From assembly GCF_003318255.1 (NCBI RefSeq), contig NZ_QOCF01000028.1:62001-126000 (forward strand): 64,000 nucleotides of DNA, given 5' to 3'. The DNA comes from Ruegeria sp. A3M17. Lineage in GTDB: Bacteria > Pseudomonadota > Alphaproteobacteria > Rhodobacterales > Rhodobacteraceae. A program made the position numbers and the translations under genes. The notes beneath the pieces were generated by a model that did no database searches, was not told the DNA's origin, and was given only the letters and a program-made list of their open reading frames with translations. Below, in pieces: positions 16,300 to 47,484 of the stretch (positions are counted from its first letter, which is position 1; every line of letters starts with the position of its first letter).

Positions 16300-18973
<2,674 letters not shown>

Positions 18974-18977
<4 letters not shown>

Positions 18978-26341: not shown

Positions 26342-27310
26342 CTAGACCATATCGTACTTTACGCTTTTGGCTCCGATGTCGCCCATATGGCCGGTGATGC
26401 GTTGCAGCAATTTCTGCCTGGACATTGCTGCAAGCGCCTCCGGAAAGCTCTGAAGCTCTTCCTTTCTGGCGACAACCGTCAAAGTGCGCGAAAGGCCCGA
26501 GACAGGAAGATCTTTCAACTGCAGGCTCATATTCTCAACCAAGCCATCGATCAGCAATGTCGGCGTCAAAAGGCTGAACCCCTGACCTGCGGAAACACAG
26601 GACGTAACCATGCTGGAGCGGTCCGCCTGGATGACCTTGTCGGGCTCAAACCGCAATCGGCGCAGATGCTGCGCAATCTGGCGGCCCGCGTTGGTTGTAT
26701 CTCCGAACCGCACCAGAGGAAGCCGCGTTTGGATCGCCTCCAGGCTGTCCGTCGGACCGTCATATGTTTCTGGTAGGACCAGAAGGTATCGTTCGGTCAG
26801 AACGTGATGACGCTCCAATCCATCCATATCCAGAAACGGGTTAGATGTGATCGCGAGATCCGCTTGTTTCGTCCGCAGCAGGTGTTCATGGTTACCGCTT
26901 TGACCGGCATGCAGGGTGATATCTTCGACGTTGAACTCACGCTGGGCAAAATCGACCAAGGAGGGCGTCAGCGTTGTGGCGATCGAGGCCTGAATGCCGA
27001 CTCGCAGCAGCGTCAGGGATTTCTGGCCAACATGGCGCAATTCCGTTTCCATGTCGGAAAGTGCATCCAGAATTTTCTGCGCTCTTCCATGCAAACGCGC
27101 ACCCGCATAGGTCAGCCGTGCCGGTCGCGTACTGCGATCCAGAAGCACAGTACCAAAAGCCTTTTCCAACGCAATGACGTGCTGGGAAGCCGCCGGCTGC
27201 GACAGATTCAGAAGTCTTGCGCCCGCCCGCATCTGACCCGTTTCCGCAACGGCGACGAAAACCTCAAGTGAACGCATCAGACTTGGTGAGAGTTTACGAT
27301 GATCCAGCAT
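26342..27310 (-). CDS. LysR-family regulator, divergent from the methylamine operon
   Basis: Transcription factor of 322 residues with an N-terminal winged helix (SLEVFVAVAETGQMRAGARL, LSQPAASQHVIALEKAFG) and a LysR effector domain (LRVGIQASIATTLTPSL onward). It lies divergent to the MttB-family gene, with 80 bp between start codons and a near-perfect dyad midway, so it is the probable regulator of that operon. The effector is unknown; a methylated amino acid or its breakdown product is a reasonable guess. The VOC gene converges on it from the other side. Confidence 0.9.
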   Translation of the reverse strand: MLDHRKLSPSLMRSLEVFVAVAETGQMRAGARLLNLSQPAASQHVIALEKAFGTVLLDRSTRPARLTYAGARLHGRAQKILDALSDMETELRHVGQKSLTLLRVGIQASIATTLTPSLVDFAQREFNVEDITLHAGQSGNHEHLLRTKQADLAITSNPFLDMDGLERHHVLTERYLLVLPETYDGPTDSLEAIQTRLPLVRFGDTTNAGRQIAQHLRRLRFEPDKVIQADRSSMVTSCVSAGQGFSLLTPTLLIDGLVENMSLQLKDLPVSGLSRTLTVVARKEELQSFPEALAAMSRQKLLQRITGHMGDIGAKSVKYDMV

Positions 27311-27390: not shown

Positions 27391-28920
27391 ATGACACGTT
27401 CGCGCTCATCTCGACGCCGCAGGGTCGCTGGACCTCGCACTCTTCCCGAGGCGCGCGCGCCGTTTATTCTGCGCAAGCTTTCGACCTTCAATGTCCTCAG
27501 CGAGGCAGGGTTGGAACAGATAGAGGCCAATGCGGATACCATCCTTGCCGAAACCGGGATGGAGTTTCAGGACGACCCAGAGATTCTAGGCATTTTTGCC
27601 GAAGCAGGCTGTGACGTAGATAGCTCGCGTGTGCGGTTCGCGCCGGGGTTCTGCCGCAAAACGATCATGGCAACAGCGCCGGCTCAGTTCGTTCAACATG
27701 CCCGAAACCCGGCCAACAACGTTCAGCTGGGCGGCAACGCCAGCGTGCTATGCCCGGCTTGGGGTCCGCCCTTTGTGCACGATCTGGACCGCGGGCGGCG
27801 CTATGCCTCGCATCAGGATTTCGTTGATCTGGTCAAGCTGCATCACAGCCTGCCCTGGCTGCACCATTCGGGCGGTGTGGTCTGCGAGCCGGTGGATTTA
27901 CCGGCCAACAAACGCCATCTCGACATGCTTTATGGTCATATTCGCCATTCTGACCGCGCCTTTATGGGGGCCTTTATCGGGGCCGAACGCGCGTGCCACG
28001 CGATCGACATGGCAAGGATTGTGTTCGGCGAAGACTTCGTGGCGGAAAACGCCGTCCTGTATTGCGTCTCTAACACAAATGCGCCGCTGGTGATGGACTG
28101 CCACATGTCGGGCGCGTTGAAAACCTATGCCCGGGCCGGGCAACCGGTCGCTTGCACCCCCTGGGTTCTGACCGGGGCCATGTCGCCGTCCACCGTGGCA
28201 GGAACGTTGGCTCAGGTGTTGGCCGAGACCATGGCAGCGATGACGCTGACCCAACTGATAAACCCCGGGGCACCCTGCATGATGGGCAGTTTTGCCTCAA
28301 CCATGTCGATGAAGTCCGGGGCACCCACCTTTGGTACGCCCGAAGCCGGGTTGATGGTTTTGGCGGCCGGTCAGCTTGCCCGCAGGCTGGGGGTGCCGCT
28401 GCACACGGTTGGCACGCTCAGCGCCTCAAAAGTTCCGGACGCTCAGAGCCAGCAAGAGGCCACATGGGGCCTGATGATGTCGATGTTCGCAGGTGCCAAT
28501 CTGATCAACCATGCCACGGGATGGCTCGAAGGTGGGTTGGTGACCTCGTTCGAAAAAACGATCCTGGATCATGATCTGTGTGGCAAAGTCGGACGGTTTT
28601 TCGATGGCATCGACATGAGCGAGAATGCGCAGGCGATGGAGGCAATTGCCGCGACCGGCCCGGGGCAGCACTTCCTAGGGTCCGAGCATACACAGGCCAA
28701 TTTCATGTCCGCATTGTTCCGGCCCTGGACCCCGGATGACAATTCATTTGAACAATGGCACGCGGCCGGAGAGCTGGACGCCGCAGCCCGCTCCAATGCA
28801 ATCTGGAAAGAGCGGCTTGACGCGTATGAAGACCCCGGACTTGACCCCGGCATTGACGCAGAGTTGCAGGACTATATCGCGCAGCGCAAATCCGAAAAAC
28901 CAGATCAGGATTACTTTTGA
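27391..28920 (+). CDS. MttB-family (trimethylamine methyltransferase-like) protein, no pyrrolysine codon
   Basis: Methyltransferase of 509 residues in the MttB superfamily, which transfers a methyl group from a quaternary or tertiary amine, classically to a corrinoid protein. Family landmarks include ILAETGMEFQDDPEIL, the central NAPLVMDCHMSGALK and WVLTGAMSPSTVAGTLAQ, and GAPTFGTPEAGLMVLAAGQL. The frame is open throughout, with no internal amber codon, so it belongs to the non-pyrrolysine group that includes glycine betaine methyltransferase MtgB. No corrinoid protein gene (MttC/MtgC) is adjacent; instead a DMGDH-like flavoprotein overlaps its stop (TGATG). The start ATG at 27391 lacks a clear ribosome site. 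It probably removes the first methyl group from a quaternary amine, with the acceptor unknown. Confidence 0.85.
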   Translation: MTRSRSSRRRRVAGPRTLPEARAPFILRKLSTFNVLSEAGLEQIEANADTILAETGMEFQDDPEILGIFAEAGCDVDSSRVRFAPGFCRKTIMATAPAQFVQHARNPANNVQLGGNASVLCPAWGPPFVHDLDRGRRYASHQDFVDLVKLHHSLPWLHHSGGVVCEPVDLPANKRHLDMLYGHIRHSDRAFMGAFIGAERACHAIDMARIVFGEDFVAENAVLYCVSNTNAPLVMDCHMSGALKTYARAGQPVACTPWVLTGAMSPSTVAGTLAQVLAETMAAMTLTQLINPGAPCMMGSFASTMSMKSGAPTFGTPEAGLMVLAAGQLARRLGVPLHTVGTLSASKVPDAQSQQEATWGLMMSMFAGANLINHATGWLEGGLVTSFEKTILDHDLCGKVGRFFDGIDMSENAQAMEAIAATGPGQHFLGSEHTQANFMSALFRPWTPDDNSFEQWHAAGELDAAARSNAIWKERLDAYEDPGLDPGIDAELQDYIAQRKSEKPDQDYF

Positions 28921-31286
28921 TGACTGGTACCTTGATCATCGGAGGCGGCGCTATTGGCCTGAGTCTGGCTTACCATCTGGCCAAACGCGGTTCGAATGAC
29001 CTCACTGTTCTGGAGCGCAATCAGCTGACCTCGGGTACTTCCTGGCATGCGGCGGGGATTGTCGGCCCGCTTCGAGCAACTCCAAACATGACCCGATTGG
29101 CAATGGCCGCACTTGAGGTTTTTCCGACCCTTGAGGCCGAGACTGGCATGTCCACTGGATATCGCCAAACCGCTGGCTACTGGCTGGCCCGCGACCCCGC
29201 CCGCCTGGACGAGCTGCGCCGGATTGCCGATCTGGGCCAGGTGCTGGGACTGACCCCACGCATGGTCAAGGCCTCGGGCGTGCCTCTGTCGCATCTTGAT
29301 CTGAGCAACCATGTTGGCGCGTTGCATGTGCCGGAAGATGCCAATGTGAATCCGGTCGATTTGTGCATGGCATACGCCAAAGGTGCACGGGATCGTGGGG
29401 TGACTATACGCGAATATACCGGGGTTCAATCCTTGCGAAAGCAAGGCGGGCGCATTACCGGTGTTACCCTGACCGATGGAACAGAACTGGACGCCGATCA
29501 GGTCGTAATTGCGACCGGCGCTTGGTCCCGCGAGCTGGCCGCCAGCGTTGGCGTCGCTCTGCCTTTGCAGTCGGTCGAACACATGTATGTGGTGACCGAA
29601 CCCATGCCCGACCTGCCCAACCCGTTCCCGGTGATCCGGGATCTGGACCGGGGCATCTACATCAAGGGCGACGCGGGCAAGCTGGTGATTGGCGGCTTTG
29701 AACCCAATGCCAAATGCTGGGACGCATGCGGCCCCGAAGGCGACCGGCCCTTTCTTGAACTGGCCGAGGATTGGGATCAGTTCGCTCCCTTCATGGAGGC
29801 CGTATTAGAGCTGTGCCCCTGCCTTGAAACCGTCGGTATCCAGCATTTCATGAATGGCCCGGAAAGCTTTACCGCGGACACAAGGCCGCTTGTTGGTGAA
29901 ACCACGGTCGATGGATTGTTTGTGGCTGCGGGTATGAACTCGGTCGGGGTCATGTCTTCGGCGGGGATTGGGCGGGCGCTGGCGGATTGGATGGTCGACG
30001 TCCACCCCCCGATGGATATGTGGGAGGTCGATGTCGCCCGGGTCGACCCGCACACAGCCAGCACCGAACATATGGCCGACCGCATGGAAGAGGCCGTCGC
30101 GGATCTTTTCGCGTTGCATTGGCCATTTAAACAGCCCAACGCCGGCCGAAGTCTGCGCACCACAGCACTGCACGATTTCTGGGCTGAGGCTGGGGCGCAT
30201 TTTGGCCTGACGGCCGGTTGGGAACGCGGGCTGTATTACGGACCGGCACAGCCCTATTCGACAACAGATCAGGGGTGGTGGCCGCTGGTTGAGGCCGAAG
30301 CGGCGGTCTTGGATCAGGGCACTGCGCTGATTGACCTAAGCCCGTTTACCAAACTGGACATCACCGGGCCGGATGCTCTGAAGGCATTGAACCACCTGAC
30401 GACCGCGCAGATGGATGTGCCCCTTGGTCGGGCTGTCTATACGCAGATACTTAACGCGCGCGGTGGGATCGAAATGGATGTGACCATCACGCGGTTGGGT
30501 AGGGATGCGTTTCATCTGACCTCAGGTGCCGCCACGCGGATGCGCGATCGGATGTTCCTGCGCAGGCATTTGAAGGGCGATGTGTCTGTAAAGGATTTGA
30601 CCGAAGCATTCTGCACAATCGGTGTAATGGGAGGTGGCAGCCGGACGCTGCTACAGGGTCTTGGCAGCCTTCCAGAAATGACATTTGGCCATGCCGCCAC
30701 CGCCAAAATGGCAGGCATTACTTGCCGCGCCACGCGCGTTAGTTTCGTCGGAGAATTGGGCTGGGAAATGACCGTTCCCAACGCGCAGGCCCCTCAGCTG
30801 TTCGACACCCTTCACACGGCAGGCGCGCGCCCGCTGGGCCACTATGCGGTGGATGCCTGCCGGTTGGAGAAGGGCTTCAAACACTGGGGCCATGAACTTG
30901 GCCCCACGATCACTCCGCTGGAAGCCGGTCTGGGGTTCACCATCGACTGGGCCAAGGAGTTTCAGGGCAAAGCGGCGCTGGAACAGCAAAAGTCCAACGG
31001 CTTGCAACAGCGCCTGATCCTTCTGCAGGTTCACGGCAATGCCCTGATGTTGCATGACGAACCGGTGTTCGAGGACGGCATCCATGTGGGGCTGACAACC
31101 TCGGGCGGGCGCGGGCCGCGTACGGGACTGAACCTGTGTTTTGCCATGGTCGCGGTCCAATCGGGCGAGACGTTGACCCAGACATGCGATCGAAAATTCG
31201 CGGTTCGGGTCGCCGGGCAGGACTATCCCGCGCAGCCCTTGCGACGTCCGCCCTTTGATCCCTCAGGCGAAAGGATGCGCGCATGA
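28920..31286 (+). CDS. DMGDH-like flavoprotein with GcvT domains (first copy)
   Basis: FAD-dependent demethylase of 788 residues. An N-terminal DAO domain (1-370) has the nucleotide motif LIIGGGAIGLSLAYHL and SGTSWHAAGIV, whose histidine is the covalent FAD site in dimethylglycine and sarcosine dehydrogenases. An FAO middle part follows and then GcvT-type folate-binding domains (about 430-780; DVTITRLGRDAFHLTSG, GELGWEMTVPNA, RLEKGFKHWGHELG). Such enzymes oxidise an N-methyl group and pass the one-carbon unit to tetrahydrofolate. The ATG shares one base with the stop of the MttB-family gene and its stop overlaps the next start. The neighbour is a diverged paralogue, so the two probably act on successive N-methyl groups. 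Confidence 0.87.
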   Translation: MTGTLIIGGGAIGLSLAYHLAKRGSNDLTVLERNQLTSGTSWHAAGIVGPLRATPNMTRLAMAALEVFPTLEAETGMSTGYRQTAGYWLARDPARLDELRRIADLGQVLGLTPRMVKASGVPLSHLDLSNHVGALHVPEDANVNPVDLCMAYAKGARDRGVTIREYTGVQSLRKQGGRITGVTLTDGTELDADQVVIATGAWSRELAASVGVALPLQSVEHMYVVTEPMPDLPNPFPVIRDLDRGIYIKGDAGKLVIGGFEPNAKCWDACGPEGDRPFLELAEDWDQFAPFMEAVLELCPCLETVGIQHFMNGPESFTADTRPLVGETTVDGLFVAAGMNSVGVMSSAGIGRALADWMVDVHPPMDMWEVDVARVDPHTASTEHMADRMEEAVADLFALHWPFKQPNAGRSLRTTALHDFWAEAGAHFGLTAGWERGLYYGPAQPYSTTDQGWWPLVEAEAAVLDQGTALIDLSPFTKLDITGPDALKALNHLTTAQMDVPLGRAVYTQILNARGGIEMDVTITRLGRDAFHLTSGAATRMRDRMFLRRHLKGDVSVKDLTEAFCTIGVMGGGSRTLLQGLGSLPEMTFGHAATAKMAGITCRATRVSFVGELGWEMTVPNAQAPQLFDTLHTAGARPLGHYAVDACRLEKGFKHWGHELGPTITPLEAGLGFTIDWAKEFQGKAALEQQKSNGLQQRLILLQVHGNALMLHDEPVFEDGIHVGLTTSGGRGPRTGLNLCFAMVAVQSGETLTQTCDRKFAVRVAGQDYPAQPLRRPPFDPSGERMRA

Positions 31287-33661
31287 TCAAGGCGCAGGTT
31301 ACTATCATCGGCGGCGGGGCCATGGGCGTGTCGCTGATGTATCACCTGGTCAAGGCTGGCTGGTCCGATGTTCTGCTGGTCGAGAAAAACGACCTGACCC
31401 ATGGGTCAACCTGGCATGCGGCAGGTCTGTGCACGCATTTCGCGCATAATCCCACCATTCAGGAATTGCGCGCCACATCTGTCCGGCTCTATCGCGATAT
31501 CTTGCCTCAGGAAACCGGACGCGATTGCGGTTTTCACCGGTCGGGCGCGATGCGGATCACACGCAACCCCGACCGGATGGACGAGTTTCGCCATGTAGCC
31601 AGCCTGTCCGAATTCACCGGCTACCCGCTGGAGGTGCTGACGCCCGACCGGATCGCCGAGCTTTTCCCTCTGGCCAAACTGGATGGGCTGATCGGTGGGA
31701 TCTATGAACCCGATGACGGTCACGTAGACCCGACGCTGGCAACCCACGCGATGGCCGAGGTTGCCCGGCGCGGCGGGGCGCGGATCATGCGAAACTGCCC
31801 GGTTACTGCGATTGAGCGTCGACGGGATCACTGGTGGATTGAGACCGAGAAAGAGACCATCGAGACCGTCCACGTGGTCAATGCCGCAGGCACTTGGGGC
31901 TGGGAGATCGGCCATATGATGGGGCTCAACATCCCGTCGGTTCCGGTGTTGCACCAGTATCTGGTGACAGACACGGTTGAGGCCGTATCCTCCCGGATCA
32001 AAGCCGGCTTGCCCGAGCTGCCAATCATCCGAGACCCTGAAGAAAGCTGGTATGTGCGACAAGAGCGCGATGGGCTGATCCTTGGGCCGTATGAAAAAGA
32101 CGCCAAGGTTTGGTCCGTTGATGGTGTGCCACCGGAGTTTGGCGCGGACCTGATGCCGCCGGATCTCGATAGTGTGGAACACATCATACTGGCCGCAATG
32201 GAGCGCATACCCGCGCTGGAGACCGGCGGCGTCAAGTCGGTGATCAACGGGCCGATTACCTTCACCCCGGATGCAAATCCATTGATCGGACCTGCATACG
32301 GGCTGGAAAACGCGTGGCTTTTGACCGGCTCGTCCATGGGGGTGATGGAAGGTGGTGGCGCAGGTTGGTTTCTGGCCCATTGGATGACCCGCGGCGCGCC
32401 GCCGATGGATGCGCTGGCCGTGGACTCGCGCCGCTTTGGGTCCTGGGCTGATCGTGATTATCGCGTGGCCAAGGCCGTCGAGTGTTTCGGCTTGCAATTT
32501 GGAGTGCACTATCCGCATGAGGAACGGCCCGCAGGGCGCGGCCTGCGGCTGTCCCCGCTGCACGACCTGATGGTCGAACGCGGAGCGGTGATGGGCGCGG
32601 CTTATGGGTGGGAGCGTCCAAACTGGTTCTCAAACACGCCCGGAGCAGTCGCCGATGAAACCTTCCGCCGCGCCAATTGGTTTGAACCCGTGGCGCAAGA
32701 GGTCGAGGCCGCGCACAACCGCGTCGCCATGGCGGACCTGTCGGTGTTTTCAAAATTCGACGTCATCGGCCCCGATGTTGCGGCCTTCCTGAAAACACTG
32801 GGCGCGAACCGCGCGACCCGTCAGGGCCGGATCGGCCTGACCCATGCGCCGACCCCTGCAGGCGGCGTGTTGTCGGAATTTACTGTCACACGCTTGGCCG
32901 AGGGTCACGCCTATCTGACCAGCGCTGCCGCGGCCGAGCAGATCGACCATGATCTTCTGACACGGGTTGCCAAGAGTTTTGACGTCACCGTTCGGAACGT
33001 CACCGAGGATTTGGCAGTTATCGGCGTTATGGGCCCCAAATCCGCCGATGTGTTGCCCGAGTTGAACCATATGCCATGGCTCACCGCGCAAGAGATCCAT
33101 GTAGCGGGGTTTCCCCTGCGTGCCCTGCGGGTGTCCTATCTGGGCGAATGCGGCTGGGAACTGCATGTGTCCGCAGAACATGCCGCGCAGCTATTCCTGA
33201 AGCTTGAAGAGATCGCCAAACCACATGGCCTTGGGTTCTATGGGGCCTATGCTGCAAACTCCATGCGCCTTGAAAAAGGCTATCGCGGTTGGGGCAGTGA
33301 TCTGACGACCGAACGCAGCCCACTTGAGGCCGGTCTGACCCCGTTTGTCCGAAAGGACCTGCGCGAGGGGCTGGCCCGGGACAACGAATGGGTCATGGTG
33401 CTGCTTGAGGTCGAGGCCGGTGAGATAGATCCGTTCTACGCGCACACGGTCTGGAAAGACGGTCTGCCGGTCGGCATCGCCACCTCGGGTGCCTACGGCC
33501 ATCGGACCGGCAAGGTTCTGGCCTTGGCCTATCTGCGCGACCCGGCTGGGCGCGAGGGGCTGACCATCTCAATCCTGGGCAAGCATCGTGCAGCAACGAT
33601 CCTGTCTGAGGCCCCCTTTGACCCCGAAAACTCACGCCTGAAAACCAGAGGTTCCAAATGA
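31283..33661 (+). CDS. DMGDH-like flavoprotein with GcvT domains (second copy)
   Basis: Second FAD/folate demethylase of the operon, 792 residues, with the same order of domains: VTIIGGGAMGVSLMYHLV and GSTWHAAGLCTHF (FAD histidine) at the N-terminus, then IRDPEESWYVRQE, and GcvT domains with EFTVTRLAEGHAYLTS, YLGECGWELHVSAEH and NSMRLEKGYRGWGSDLT. The latter half is closer to the textbook dimethylglycine/sarcosine dehydrogenase pattern than the first copy's. It overlaps both neighbours by four bases. The two copies differ greatly in sequence, so this is not a recent duplication. A role in the last N-demethylation is inferred. Confidence 0.9.
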   Translation: MIKAQVTIIGGGAMGVSLMYHLVKAGWSDVLLVEKNDLTHGSTWHAAGLCTHFAHNPTIQELRATSVRLYRDILPQETGRDCGFHRSGAMRITRNPDRMDEFRHVASLSEFTGYPLEVLTPDRIAELFPLAKLDGLIGGIYEPDDGHVDPTLATHAMAEVARRGGARIMRNCPVTAIERRRDHWWIETEKETIETVHVVNAAGTWGWEIGHMMGLNIPSVPVLHQYLVTDTVEAVSSRIKAGLPELPIIRDPEESWYVRQERDGLILGPYEKDAKVWSVDGVPPEFGADLMPPDLDSVEHIILAAMERIPALETGGVKSVINGPITFTPDANPLIGPAYGLENAWLLTGSSMGVMEGGGAGWFLAHWMTRGAPPMDALAVDSRRFGSWADRDYRVAKAVECFGLQFGVHYPHEERPAGRGLRLSPLHDLMVERGAVMGAAYGWERPNWFSNTPGAVADETFRRANWFEPVAQEVEAAHNRVAMADLSVFSKFDVIGPDVAAFLKTLGANRATRQGRIGLTHAPTPAGGVLSEFTVTRLAEGHAYLTSAAAAEQIDHDLLTRVAKSFDVTVRNVTEDLAVIGVMGPKSADVLPELNHMPWLTAQEIHVAGFPLRALRVSYLGECGWELHVSAEHAAQLFLKLEEIAKPHGLGFYGAYAANSMRLEKGYRGWGSDLTTERSPLEAGLTPFVRKDLREGLARDNEWVMVLLEVEAGEIDPFYAHTVWKDGLPVGIATSGAYGHRTGKVLALAYLRDPAGREGLTISILGKHRAATILSEAPFDPENSRLKTRGSK

Positions 33662-34983
33662 CCGACCACGCCCTTCACACCGACTGGGACTTCTCGAACA
33701 CAGCCGCGCGACGGGACCAGTACTATGCGGCCTCACTGACAAAGTTCACACCGTTTCGCGAACCCATCGTTTTCAAGAAAGGTCAGGGCCAATACCTTTG
33801 GGATACGGAGGGGCGAAAATACACTGACCTGCTGGGCATGAACGTCTGTATCTCCGTCGGACATTCGCATCCTCGTGTTGTGGCGGCGGCAACTGCACAG
33901 GCGCAAGAGCTGACCCACTGCACGACAATGTTCTACCACCCAACACCTGCGCATCTGGCCGAAGAATTGGCCGCGACCATGCCCAAAGGACATGAATGGG
34001 TCGTGCATCTGACCAACTCCGGATCCGAGGCGGTTGATCTGGCGATGACCATGGCGCGCACATACACTGGCAATCTGGACTTGCTTGCCTTGCGTACCGC
34101 CTATCACGGGCCAACGGCTGCGGCGCAGTCGATCACCGGTATCTCTGGCTGGCGCCACCCGGGCATGCCCGGCAACGTGGCCTTTTTGCCGGAACCCAAC
34201 CAATATCGCGGCATCTTTGGGCCGGGCACGCAGCCCTATCTGGATGAGATCGATCGCACCATCGCCACAGCCACATCCGGCAATGTGGCGGGCATCTTTG
34301 TCGAAAGTGTGCAGGGCTATGGCGGCATCATCGAAATGCCCCCCGGTTATATGTCCGGCGCGGCCGAACGCGTGCGCGCGGCAGGCGGACTTTATATCGC
34401 GGATGAGGTTCAATCGGGCTTTGGCCGCACGGGCGAAAACTTCTGGGGGTTCGAGGCAGACGGCGTTGTTCCGGATATCGTCGTCATGGCGAAGGGTCTG
34501 GGAAATGGCTTCCCGATCGGGGCGGTTGTGGCTAAGAAATACATTGCCGAGCCCATGGCCGAAAGGTTCATGTTCCACACCTATGGTGCCAACCCGACAT
34601 CGGCTGCCGCGGCCCGCGCCGTTCTTGCCGTAATGCGGGACGAGGGATTGCAGGAGAACGCCCGTACCGTCGGCGCTGCGCTGCTGGAAAGGCTGCATAG
34701 CCTGAAAGAGAAGTTTCAGGTCATCGGCGATGTTCGCGGAAAGGGCCTGATGCTTGCGCTGGAGTTCGTCAAAGACCGGGACAGCAAGACGCCTGACAAG
34801 GACATGACGACAGAGGTTTTCGAAGCCTGCCGCGCACAAGGGATTATCTTGTCGAAATCCGGTCCATTTCAACAATGCCTGCGGATGGTGCCACCGCTTT
34901 GTTTGTCACTGGACGATGTGGATCAGGTGGCGAACAGTCTTGATCAAGCGCTCGAAGCTGCCGTGAATGTCGCCAAAGCATAA
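33658..34983 (+). CDS. class III PLP aminotransferase, AGXT2-like
   Basis: PLP-dependent omega-aminotransferase of 441 residues. The pattern YIADEVQSGFGRTGENFWGF, followed by VVMAKGLGNGFPIGAV with the PLP-binding lysine, and HTYGANPTSAAAA, is that of alanine-glyoxylate aminotransferase 2, whose family members act on beta-alanine, 3-aminoisobutyrate and related omega-amino acids. As the last gene of the MttB/DMGDH/DMGDH operon (four-base overlap) it would take the fully demethylated primary amine and turn it into an aldehyde or keto acid. This suggests a beta- or gamma-amino acid betaine as the original substrate. The amine itself is not determined by sequence. Confidence 0.88.
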   Translation: MTDHALHTDWDFSNTAARRDQYYAASLTKFTPFREPIVFKKGQGQYLWDTEGRKYTDLLGMNVCISVGHSHPRVVAAATAQAQELTHCTTMFYHPTPAHLAEELAATMPKGHEWVVHLTNSGSEAVDLAMTMARTYTGNLDLLALRTAYHGPTAAAQSITGISGWRHPGMPGNVAFLPEPNQYRGIFGPGTQPYLDEIDRTIATATSGNVAGIFVESVQGYGGIIEMPPGYMSGAAERVRAAGGLYIADEVQSGFGRTGENFWGFEADGVVPDIVVMAKGLGNGFPIGAVVAKKYIAEPMAERFMFHTYGANPTSAAAARAVLAVMRDEGLQENARTVGAALLERLHSLKEKFQVIGDVRGKGLMLALEFVKDRDSKTPDKDMTTEVFEACRAQGIILSKSGPFQQCLRMVPPLCLSLDDVDQVANSLDQALEAAVNVAKA

Positions 34984-35101: not shown

Positions 35102-36703
35102 CTACATCTTGGCCAGTTCCGATTTCAGCGCCAACCACAAGCAGTAGCACATGATCAGAACGACCAGCGTGAACGGGATACCGGTCGAAACCGCCGCGCC
35201 TTGCAGGGCTGCAAGACCGCCGCCGAGCAACAGTGCAATGGCAACCAACCCTTCAAGCGTACACCAGAACACCCGCTGTACAACCGGGGCGTCCATCTTG
35301 CCACCTGCGGTAATCGTGTCGATCACCAGTGAACCGGAATCCGACGAGGTGACGAAGAAGATCACGATCAGGACCAGTGCGATTGGCGCGACAATACCAT
35401 AAAGGGGCAGCTCTTTCAGGAAGCCGAACAGTGCGCCTTCGGGAGCGTAGCTGTCGATCACCGTAGCGCGGACACCTTCGGCTCCGCCTGCGTTCAGCAT
35501 GTCGATGGCAGCACCACCAAAGGTCGACATCCACAAGGCACAGACTGCCGTCGGTGCCAGAAGGGCGCAGAGGATGAACTCGCGCACTGTGCGACCCCTC
35601 GAGATGCGGGCGATGAACATGCCGACGAAGGGTGACCATGCGATCCACCAGGCCCAGTAGAAAGTGGTCCAGCCGTGGAAATAGCTGGTGTCTTCACGTC
35701 CGAACGGGTTGGACAATGCCGGAAGGTGCAAAACGTAGTCTGTCATCACGTTGAAATACCGTGCGAAGGCAGTGCCGACCCCGGTAACAACGATCACGAA
35801 GATAAACAGACCCACGGCCATGATCATGTTGATTTCACTCAACCGTTTGACGCCAGCATCCATGCCCATCAGGACCGAGCCCAGCGCAATCAGCGTGATG
35901 CCGATGATAAGCAAAACTGTGACGGTTGGGCTGGGTTCGATGCCGAACACCTCATACAATCCTGCCGCAACTTGCTGCGCCCCAAGCCCAAGCGAAGTGG
36001 TCAGTCCGAAAAGCGTCGCAAATACAGCCAGAGTATCGATGATATGGCCCCACCAACCCCACACACGCTCTCCGAGGATCGGATAGAAGGCCGACCGCAG
36101 GGTCAGGGGAAGATCAAGGTTATATGCAAAGATGGCCAAGCTAAGACCAACTGCGGCATAGACCGCCCAGCCTTCCAGCCCCCAATGGTGGATCGTTCCG
36201 ACGATACCAGCATATTCATTGCCCGGAACCGCGATATCGATACCCAGCGGCACCGCGTTCCCGTCTTCGGCAAAATTGTAATAGACGGGCTCCATCACCC
36301 CAAAGAACAACAGCCCGATGCCGATACCGGCCGCGAACATCATCGCAATCCATCCGGCATAGGAATAGTCGGGCTTTGCGTCCTTGCCGCCGATCCGCAC
36401 CTTGCCAACCGGCAACACGATCAGAACAAGACAGAACAACGTGATTGCATCGACCGACAGGACCAGGAACCAGTCAAACGTGCTGGTGAGCCATGGTCGT
36501 AGCCAGCCAAAAAGTGCCGCAGCACCCTCTTGATTGGCCAATGCGATCAGAACAAACGCGAAGATCAGGATGCTCGAGATCAAAAAGACTGGGTTATGGA
36601 TGTCCAAACCGAATGGCCGGACGTTGTCTTGCCCAAGCTCGTATTCGGTCTCGAAGTCGTAAATCCGGGGGTCCGGATCCAGCATTTTCTTGGTTTGTGC
36701 CAT
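35102..36703 (-). CDS. BCCT-family (betaine/choline/carnitine) transporter
   Basis: Sodium- or proton-coupled importer of quaternary ammonium compounds, 533 residues and twelve predicted membrane spans. Markers are FAAGIGIGLLFFGVMEPVYY, HWGLEGWAVYA and the aromatic-rich signature FYWAWWIAWSPFVGMFIARI, followed by SRGRTVREFI. The BCCT glycine/tryptophan core is intact. The substrate of BCCT members cannot be told apart by eye. Standing tail to tail with the demethylase/transaminase operon, it probably takes up that pathway's substrate. The ATG at 36703 is used (MAQTKKML), with AAGG nine bases upstream; the frame extends 12 codons further. Confidence 0.92.
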   Translation of the reverse strand: MAQTKKMLDPDPRIYDFETEYELGQDNVRPFGLDIHNPVFLISSILIFAFVLIALANQEGAAALFGWLRPWLTSTFDWFLVLSVDAITLFCLVLIVLPVGKVRIGGKDAKPDYSYAGWIAMMFAAGIGIGLLFFGVMEPVYYNFAEDGNAVPLGIDIAVPGNEYAGIVGTIHHWGLEGWAVYAAVGLSLAIFAYNLDLPLTLRSAFYPILGERVWGWWGHIIDTLAVFATLFGLTTSLGLGAQQVAAGLYEVFGIEPSPTVTVLLIIGITLIALGSVLMGMDAGVKRLSEINMIMAVGLFIFVIVVTGVGTAFARYFNVMTDYVLHLPALSNPFGREDTSYFHGWTTFYWAWWIAWSPFVGMFIARISRGRTVREFILCALLAPTAVCALWMSTFGGAAIDMLNAGGAEGVRATVIDSYAPEGALFGFLKELPLYGIVAPIALVLIVIFFVTSSDSGSLVIDTITAGGKMDAPVVQRVFWCTLEGLVAIALLLGGGLAALQGAAVSTGIPFTLVVLIMCYCLWLALKSELAKM

Positions 36704-36947
36704 TCGTCTGCCCTTCTGTTCGCTAAGTGCAAACGCCAAGGTATTCGACCAGCGGACGGAAACGAGATTTTGTCCCTTGGCGCTTCTCCGTCAATTCGAC
36801 CGCGGGCTTCGTGATAACAGCTTACACTGACGACATAATTTCACCAAACGCATTCCCGTTAGTGAATTTATCTGACTTGATAGACGATTTTGGGCGGCAC
36901 CGGGATCATTGGTCCCAACTTCTGGCCAAGGGGCTTTATCCGTGTTA

Positions 36948-45838: not shown

Positions 45839-46044
45839 GGGGCATCTCCTTTTTTGTGAAACAAACCGAGTCGGTTGCTGGAAACCTAATAACTCTGCGC
45901 CATTGTTAAACCATTCGCTGCTTGAAAGGGTATTCATTTTTGAGGAAATTAATTTGATCAAATTGCGCCTTGCCACACAGATACGCCGGTGCCAGAGTGG
46001 CGCAAATTCCCGCCATCCGGGCCACGGGATCAGGAGGACACGTG

Positions 46045-47484
46045 ATGATCGAGAAACGCAATTTCTACATTGACGGAACATGGGTCACCCCATCTGCAGC
46101 GAATGATTTCGAGGTGATCAACCCCTCGACCGAGGAACCCTGCGCGGTGATCTCACTGGGCGCGCAGGCTGATACCGACGCCGCAGTTGCTGCCGCAAAG
46201 GCCGCCCTGCCCGGCTGGATGGCCACGCCTGTCGAGGATCGCATCGCGCTGGTCGAAAAACTGATCGGGATTTACCAAAGCCGTTCCGAAGACCTGGCCC
46301 AGGCGATGTCTCTTGAGATGGGAGCGCCAATCGACATGGCGCGCACCCAGCAATCCGGCGCGGGCATGTATCACCTTGCGAACTTTGTGCGCGCAGCCAA
46401 GGCGTTCCAATTCGACCGCCCGCTGGGGGATCACGCGCCCAATGACAGGATCATCTATGAGGCCGTCGGTGTTGCCGCCCTGATCACGCCGTGGAACTGG
46501 CCGATGAACCAGGTCACGCTCAAGGTCGGCGCGGCGGCGATTGCAGGCTGCGCCATGGTTCTGAAACCATCGGAACAAAGCCCGCTGAACGCAATGATCT
46601 TTGCCGAGATGATGGATGAGGCCGGCTTCCCCGCCGGTGTGTTCAATCTGGTGAACGGCGATGGCGTGGGCGTTGGTTCCCAGCTGTCGGCTCATCCGGA
46701 TGTGGATATGGTCAGCTTTACCGGCTCGACCCGCGCTGGCACAGCGATCTCAAAAAGTGCTGCAGACAGCTTGAAGAAGGTACATCTGGAGCTGGGCGGC
46801 AAGGGTGCAAACGTGGTCTTTGCCGATGCCGATGAAAAGGCCGTCAAACGTGGCGTTCTGCACATGATGAACAACACCGGCCAAAGCTGTAATGCGCCCA
46901 GCCGCATGCTGGTGCAGCGCCCGATCTACGATCAGGCTGTGGAAACTGCGGCTGAAGTGGCCAGCATGGTTTCGGTGGGCAGCGCGCAGGAAGAAGGCCG
47001 CCATATCGGCCCCGTCGTGAACGAGTTGCAGTGGAACAAAATCCAGGACCTGATCCAGAAGGGCATCGACGAAGGCGCCCGTTTGGTGACGGGAGGCACC
47101 GGGCGGCCCGAAGGGCTGAACAAGGGCTATTATGTACGTCCGACCGTCTTTGCCGATGCCAATAACCAGATGACCGTCGCGCGCGAAGAGATCTTTGGCC
47201 CGGTCCTGACCATGATCCCCTTCGACACCGAAGAAGAGGCCGTCGAGATTGCCAACGACACGCCATACGGCCTGACCAATTACGTTCAGACGCAAGACGG
47301 CGCGCGGGCCAACCGAATGGCACGTGTGCTGCGGTCCGGAATGGTCGAAATGAATGGCCAGTCGCGCAGTGCAGGATCACCGTTTGGCGGCATGAAACAG
47401 TCCGGCAACGGGCGCGAAGGCGGCTTGTGGGGGTTGGAAGACTTCCTTGAGGTCAAAGCCGTCGGTGGCTGGGCGGCAGAGTGA
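46045..47484 (+). CDS. aldehyde dehydrogenase family protein
   Basis: NAD(P)-dependent aldehyde dehydrogenase of 479 residues. Visible are the proton-relay asparagine in LITPWNWPMNQ, KPSEQSP, FTGSTRAG, LELGGKGANVVFAD (general base Glu) and NTGQSCNAPSRM with the catalytic Cys, then [10 protein letters not shown] and SPFGGMKQSGNGREGG. The pattern is that of a broad-specificity ALDH rather than a betaine-aldehyde or succinic-semialdehyde enzyme. GGAGG is seven bases before the ATG at 46045. The gene stands alone with its own terminator. The substrate is unknown. Confidence 0.93.
   Translation: MIEKRNFYIDGTWVTPSAANDFEVINPSTEEPCAVISLGAQADTDAAVAAAKAALPGWMATPVEDRIALVEKLIGIYQSRSEDLAQAMSLEMGAPIDMARTQQSGAGMYHLANFVRAAKAFQFDRPLGDHAPNDRIIYEAVGVAALITPWNWPMNQVTLKVGAAAIAGCAMVLKPSEQSPLNAMIFAEMMDEAGFPAGVFNLVNGDGVGVGSQLSAHPDVDMVSFTGSTRAGTAISKSAADSLKKVHLELGGKGANVVFADADEKAVKRGVLHMMNNTGQSCNAPSRMLVQRPIYDQAVETAAEVASMVSVGSAQEEGRHIGPVVNELQWNKIQDLIQKGIDEGARLVTGGTGRPEGLNKGYYVRPTVFADANNQMTVAREEIFGPVLTMIPFDTEEEAVEIANDTPYGLTNYVQTQDGARANRMARVLRSGMVEMNGQSRSAGSPFGGMKQSGNGREGGLWGLEDFLEVKAVGGWAAE

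Follow-up and report, generated by a model that had tools for sequence, protein, structure and literature searches.

The 64,000-nucleotide stretch of Ruegeria sp. A3M17 analysed here (the window) carries a LysR-linked gene cassette that we consider fairly likely to encode an aerobic route for degrading a trimethylammonium compound that is not glycine betaine. Judged from its genes, the cassette probably removes the nitrogen of a non-glycine betaine after taking off its three methyl groups. Four genes, flanked by a LysR gene and a BCCT gene, lie consecutively on the forward strand: M (27391–28920, 509 residues), a non-pyrrolysine MttB-family methyltransferase and the proposed first demethylase; A (28920–31286, ATG start) and B (31283–33661), two DMGDH-type flavoprotein/GcvT fusions, each proposed as second or third demethylase; and T (33658–34983, 441 residues), a class-III PLP aminotransferase proposed for the last step. 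The LysR-family regulator (26342–27310, reverse strand; PF00126 and PF03466) is divergent from M, and the BCCT transporter gene (35102–36739, reverse strand; PF02028), a neighbour only, is tail to tail with T. M and A overlap by a TGATG read in the sequence at 28918–28922, and the A/B and B/T overlaps, taken from gene coordinates, are ATGA. A sequence-only reading of this DNA had described an MttB methyltransferase, two DMGDH/GcvT fusions and a class-III aminotransferase joined by such overlaps, and coordinates and domains bear this out.

M, A, B and T co-occur beyond chance. Scanning genome contigs with an alignment of A orthologues matched 321 stretches, 284 of which encode relatives; the best 80 of these 284 made up the locus survey, in which genes were scored by tblastn in all 80. 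These loci include close strains, and the counts are not of independent events. A was present in 80/80 loci, M in 76, B in 74, T in 69 and BCCT in four, with the complete M, A, B and T set in 68/80. Scattering of the four genes, the outcome that the sequence-only reading had named as telling against its pathway, did not occur. The LysR gene, missing from that earlier gene list, adjoins the cassette in 62/80 loci and belongs to the conserved unit. Two arrangements dominate the complete loci, LysR divergent from M-A-B-T (35/68) and T-M-LysR divergent from A-B (23/68). Nine have M-A-B-T without a LysR match, one has T-M divergent from A-B, and gene order is rearranged in 24 of the 68 complete sets. 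A Mesorhizobium plasmid presents a third order (T, LysR, A, B, M, then betaine/choline ABC transporter genes). Hosts of complete sets span Alpha- and Gammaproteobacteria, including Rhodobacterales, Hyphomicrobiales, Geminicoccaceae, Granulosicoccaceae and a Chromatiales symbiont; M and A are present on a SAR116 contig.

Twelve loci are incomplete: four with A only, three cut by contig ends (L136, L146 and L149) and five without an adjacent T. The A-only loci (L143, L144, L145 and L150) hold just a 55–56% A relative; they have one gene family in common, which is LysR in the one that is annotated. T is missing beside M, A and B in L079, L091 (whose contig ends 0.9 kb after B), L138, L139 and L142. 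A protein search of these five genomes, with the relatives' neighbours outside its scope, placed a T relative of 57–74% identity elsewhere in four, and found none above 32% in the genome of L142. Flanking genes are mostly dissimilar between loci, near kin excepted, as for a movable cassette, and the five-gene set of LysR, M, A, B and T is mobile-looking on this comparison.

A phylogenetic profile of 196 related genomes (own included) gives a similar picture. A is found at an identity of at least 54% in 19 genomes, and, at the search thresholds used, B in 17 and T in 20. In all 17 genomes with B, A and T are present and M is adjacent; the identity of M is 77–100% in 11 and 50–51% in the six with the second arrangement. 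In G041, a 55% A relative sits on a 12-kb contig from which M, B and T are absent. T occurs in three further genomes, two of which have decayed cassettes or remnants. The contig of G190 ends inside A; G116 still has the final 57 residues of B upstream of T; and in G018 T is shortened by ~72 residues at its start and interrupted by an in-frame stop, and the other cassette genes were not found in 19.5 kb. The 17/17 co-occurrence and the state of these extra T genomes suggest that gains and losses affect the whole set. A broader, class-wide search with the A alignment put 102/385 genomes above threshold and was kept out of the counts, because it also catches ordinary paralogues such as C13:231558 and identities were not given.

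The surroundings of the unit are less constant. The BCCT importer that the sequence-only reading had added to the pathway does stand tail to tail at this locus, but its rarity in the survey removes it from the conserved unit; it is a possible importer in close kin of the strain. Choline-type ABC permeases occur in 6/80 loci, and transporters vary from locus to locus (BCCT, choline-type ABC, TRAP and LIV-type). Reading the substrate from neighbours was given up, as transporters differ in this way and the genes around off-cassette T relatives did not settle it. At L171:4598–12343, a 61% T relative is accompanied by a choline-sulfatase (TIGR03417, 682 bits), a TRAP transporter and a regulator of the MocR type. 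In several relatives the interval from M to A contains a frame of ~262 residues, which was considered as a fifth operon gene and rejected as the antisense shadow of a sulfotransferase-like gene. The latter, absent from the window, is found in 32/80 loci, in or beside the cassette and on either strand (for example, L114:14776–15540). It encodes a protein of ~254 residues with a Sulfotransfer_5 domain and the motif HPRSxST, whose profile found three matches among solved structures (best 4gox, E 0.0035); this neighbour may be a clue to the substrate. Elsewhere in the window, 8 kb from the cassette, 16300–18977 holds a reverse-strand LysR gene, tmpA (17254–18390; NF049936, 595 bits against a cut-off of 400) and tmpB (in 18303–18977; NF049941, 360 bits against a cut-off of 300), tmpAB being a route from 2-trimethylaminoethylphosphonate to glycine betaine. 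The nearest aldehyde dehydrogenase gene of the window is at 45970–47484, 11 kb from the cassette.

A and B each combine DAO, FAO_M, GCV_T and GCV_T_C in one chain, the domain set of the DMGDH/SARDH family. In DMGO and DMGDH, the WHAAG histidine and the active-site histidine and tyrosine have known roles. A retains H44, H222 and Y248 in 81/81 rows and D521 in 80/81 (the four A-only loci included), and B retains H45, H224, Y257 and E532 in 65/65. Eleven loci with a stop in the tblastn stretch, where the alignment may overrun the gene end, were omitted from the B rows, and one from the T rows. The folate-domain acid is an aspartate in A, as in DMGO, and a glutamate in B, as in mammalian DMGDH; B is also much closer to the mammalian enzyme (4p9s; 618 bits versus 357 bits for A). 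Both fusions thus keep their flavin and folate residues and are predicted demethylases.

M is a whole MttB-family protein (PF06253 over residues 3–503 of 509, 645 bits), with a frame that is open and free of in-frame amber codons; it scores 255 bits with TIGR02369, below the cut-off of 525, and so is not the pyrrolysine equivalog. Docking into DhMtgB (no ligand-bound structure) led to Y94, N199, R309 and H345 being proposed for glycine betaine, four residues also present in a methanogen's enzyme (PMC6855144). We mapped these sites by alignment, taking the first printed DhMtgB residue as number 2, onto 79 cassette M rows from 83 loci (the window, L059 and L071–L151); the four A-only loci contribute no row, and second MttB copies (24–39%) in L111, L117 and L131 were left out. 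The pocket reads W-N-H-H in all 53 type 1 rows, the window's M included, and F-N-H-H in all 26 of type 2. Y94 is therefore replaced by W or F, and R309 by H, in 79/79 rows, with the N199 and H345 equivalents kept. As a control we took all 46 non-cassette rows among 64 MttB rows, 46–56% identical to M: these read Y,N,R,H in 43 cases and Y,N,R,Q in three, keeping Y94 and R309 throughout (46/46). Among seven paralogues in the strain's own genome, L062 has Y,N,R,H, L063–L065 keep N, R and H with T, S and A at site 94, and L066–L068 match none of the four sites, the alignment there being doubtful. Because site 94 varies in other paralogues too, it is R309 to H that we regard as the cassette-specific change. 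With two of the four residues replaced, M falls outside MtgB as defined by Y94, N199, R309 and H345, and at the level of aligned residues the W/F-N-H-H signature separates cassette M from glycine betaine-type enzymes.

Loss of R309 suggests an anionic group placed differently than in glycine betaine, as would be the case in beta-, gamma- and omega-amino acid betaines, sulfonates and phosphonates. Our first guess at the substrate is a beta-, gamma- or omega-amino acid betaine, for example beta-alanine betaine or gamma-butyrobetaine. The same pathway logic could apply to taurine betaine, trimethylaminoethylphosphonate or N6-trimethyllysine (a sulfonate, a phosphonate and a lysine derivative), whose different or differently positioned anionic group would also fit the changed pocket. 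The sulfotransferase-like gene of 32 loci leans towards such a substrate, as do P152 and Y221 of T, which occupy positions with carboxylate-linked residues in GABA transaminase. Yet an annotation view (not gene-by-gene) of the conserved unit noticed no Xsc, PhnX or lysine-pathway genes, and the window already has another route for trimethylaminoethylphosphonate in tmpAB; we consider these substrates unlikely.

In the M tree, types 1 and 2 are each fully supported (100/100) and are joined with support of 99/94, apart from 4yyc, L062 and L063. The two types are ~50% identical, type 2 being on the longer branch. We considered whether the second arrangement had acquired a substitute M, which proved unnecessary: the two types group together in the M tree, and a single type 2 clade is not rejected by the A+B tree (p-AU 0.315); the poorly resolved T tree was left out of this comparison of arrangement histories. 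L062 is 61% identical to 4yyc and M 52%, which indicates that M coexists with an MtgB-like gene in this genome. We take 4yyc to be an S. meliloti protein, and from this origin and the mtgBCDE genes of that species we infer that it is a glycine betaine enzyme; mtgBCDE are found together in S. meliloti (PMC6855144).

A redundant glycine betaine pathway also has to be weighed, with M as MtgB, A and B acting on dimethylglycine and sarcosine, and T acting on glycine/glyoxylate. The 52% identity of M to 4yyc and its retained N199 and H345 equivalents are in keeping with this, but Y94 and R309, replaced in every cassette row, are kept in every non-cassette row. The 618-bit match of B to mammalian DMGDH has to be set beside a genome that already contains the MtgB-like L062 and a DMGDH-type protein at C13:231558. 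Glycine betaine is a known substrate type in Ruegeria (PMC12478193); a P0002 match (E at most 3.5e-162) is nevertheless present in all 54 same-genus genomes (own included), cassette or not, and an omega-transaminase would be superfluous for glycine. We regard the redundant pathway as quite improbable, and return to a non-glycine betaine as the preferred substrate.

Glycine betaine demethylation in R. pomeroyi uses the corrinoid protein MtgC and the pterin-binding MtgD, shared with methionine synthesis, along with MtgB candidates; marine bacteria with mtgC and mtgD have up to seven MttB-type genes, for which other substrates are suggested, most of them open (PMC12478193). The 4.44-Mb genome of our strain (G000) has eight MttB genes, B12-binding domains at three places (one in a small frame of 259 residues), and one RACo reactivase with a second pterin-binding protein 1.8 kb away. 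Domain, size and position point to MtgC, MtgD and reactivase roles for these genes. Other MttB genes of the genome lie in candidate betaine loci of their own. In L063 (G000:C8:100500–120400), an MttB protein 41% identical to M is accompanied by a BCCT transporter, a DMGDH-type protein and a member of the enolase superfamily whose nearest family, matched below its cut-off, is cis-3-hydroxyproline dehydratase; this locus is perhaps for a proline-type betaine. MttB adjoins a class-III aminotransferase in L068 (G000:C11:40500–60400), and DMGDH-type genes in L065 and L067.

T carries the class-III transaminase signature, with PF00202 and with K279, D249 and R409 in 69/69 rows. In class-III transaminases an arginine of the C-terminal region binds the carboxylate, and dialkylglycine decarboxylase has an arginine at the position of R409. 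Positions 152 and 221 are P in 68/69 and Y in 69/69 rows, setting T apart from GABA transaminase, in which they are presumably arginine and glutamate. The sequence-only reading likened T to AGXT2, a name that does not appear among the family and structure matches listed for T; the best of those listed are PRK06149/PRK06148 (375 bits) and, as solved relative, the ethanolamine-phosphate phospho-lyase 6tor (271 bits). Ten further T relatives are present in the genome, the best at 36%. In our reading, T is a transaminase of the pyruvate or glyoxylate type. The 6tor match raises a route from phosphocholine (or phosphorylated choline) to phosphoethanolamine by demethylation, with T as the phospho-lyase and a precedent in MthB, the Eubacterium MttB homologue that demethylates phosphocholine (PMC12155760, PMC12478193), but we hold it to be highly improbable, with R409 of every T row a lysine in both phospho-lyases compared (6tor and 5g4i), with T lacking the two-residue gap that both have after LD, and with no choline kinase seen among annotated neighbours.

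For the preferred non-glycine betaine, M would demethylate the quaternary nitrogen once, loading the methyl group onto a shared MtgC-like corrinoid protein, and an MtgD-like protein would hand it on to tetrahydrofolate. The two remaining N-methyl groups would be oxidized to methylene-tetrahydrofolate by A and B. T would then transfer the resulting primary amine, probably with pyruvate or glyoxylate as acceptor, and an aldehyde would be left. We infer every reaction, the step order, the acceptor and the substrate from gene content and overlaps, conservation of the unit, catalytic residues, the altered M pocket and the candidate corrinoid, pterin-binding and reactivase genes. A counterpoint is that no aldehyde dehydrogenase lies within the conserved unit. 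The demethylate-then-transaminate logic of the earlier reading, shorn of BCCT as a member, agrees with the conserved unit, the flavin and folate residues of A and B, the T signature and the non-MtgB pocket of M, as expected of such a pathway for another betaine.

A more far-reaching proposal, which we see as evenly poised, is that this is an unreported, complete aerobic pathway on a cassette movable among Alpha- and Gammaproteobacteria, sending three methyls of a betaine other than glycine betaine (beta-alanine betaine, gamma-butyrobetaine or a sulfonate analogue) to folate and B12 carbon metabolism and its nitrogen to transamination, with W/F-N-H-H marking a new MttB specificity. No description of this cassette was found in the open-access literature. 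If the proposal is true, another marine osmolyte class depends on B12 for its recycling, and the cassette may represent a route, missed so far, by which nitrogen and B12-linked carbon are cycled. One marine MttB-type gene is now tied to two demethylases, a transaminase, a regulator and a residue signature that lets the substrate be tested directly in marine bacteria.

Several known systems share parts of this design. T shares its fold family and its catalytic lysine and aspartate with class-III PLP enzymes, ethanolamine-phosphate phospho-lyase among them, but the two phospho-lyases carry a lysine in place of arginine 409. Gamma-N-methylaminobutyrate oxidase (MABO) is a GcvT-type fusion. In Paenarthrobacter nicotinovorans it demethylates N-methyl-GABA with transfer to tetrahydrofolate (PMC6214936), the chemistry that we propose for one of the two fusions, A or B, acting on a gamma-amino acid, although MABO belongs to a nicotine pathway without a quaternary step or a linked transaminase. 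MtyB, MtcB, MtpB and MthB of Eubacterium limosum are non-pyrrolysine MttB proteins for gamma-butyrobetaine, carnitine, proline betaine and phosphocholine (PMC12478193); compared with M by description only, they come from an anaerobic acetogen and remove one methyl. Ruegeria pomeroyi MtgBCD, with its DMG and sarcosine dehydrogenases, shares with the cassette an MttB-family methyltransferase and folate-domain DMGDH-type follow-up enzymes (PMC12478193, PMC4744692), and the corrinoid and pterin-binding partners are expected to be common to both (PMC12478193). In contrast to MtgBCD, cassette M is of another subfamily with a changed pocket, and M, A, B and the transaminase are gathered in one cassette with its own LysR regulator. 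The cassette appears to be a new form of the glycine betaine route already described.
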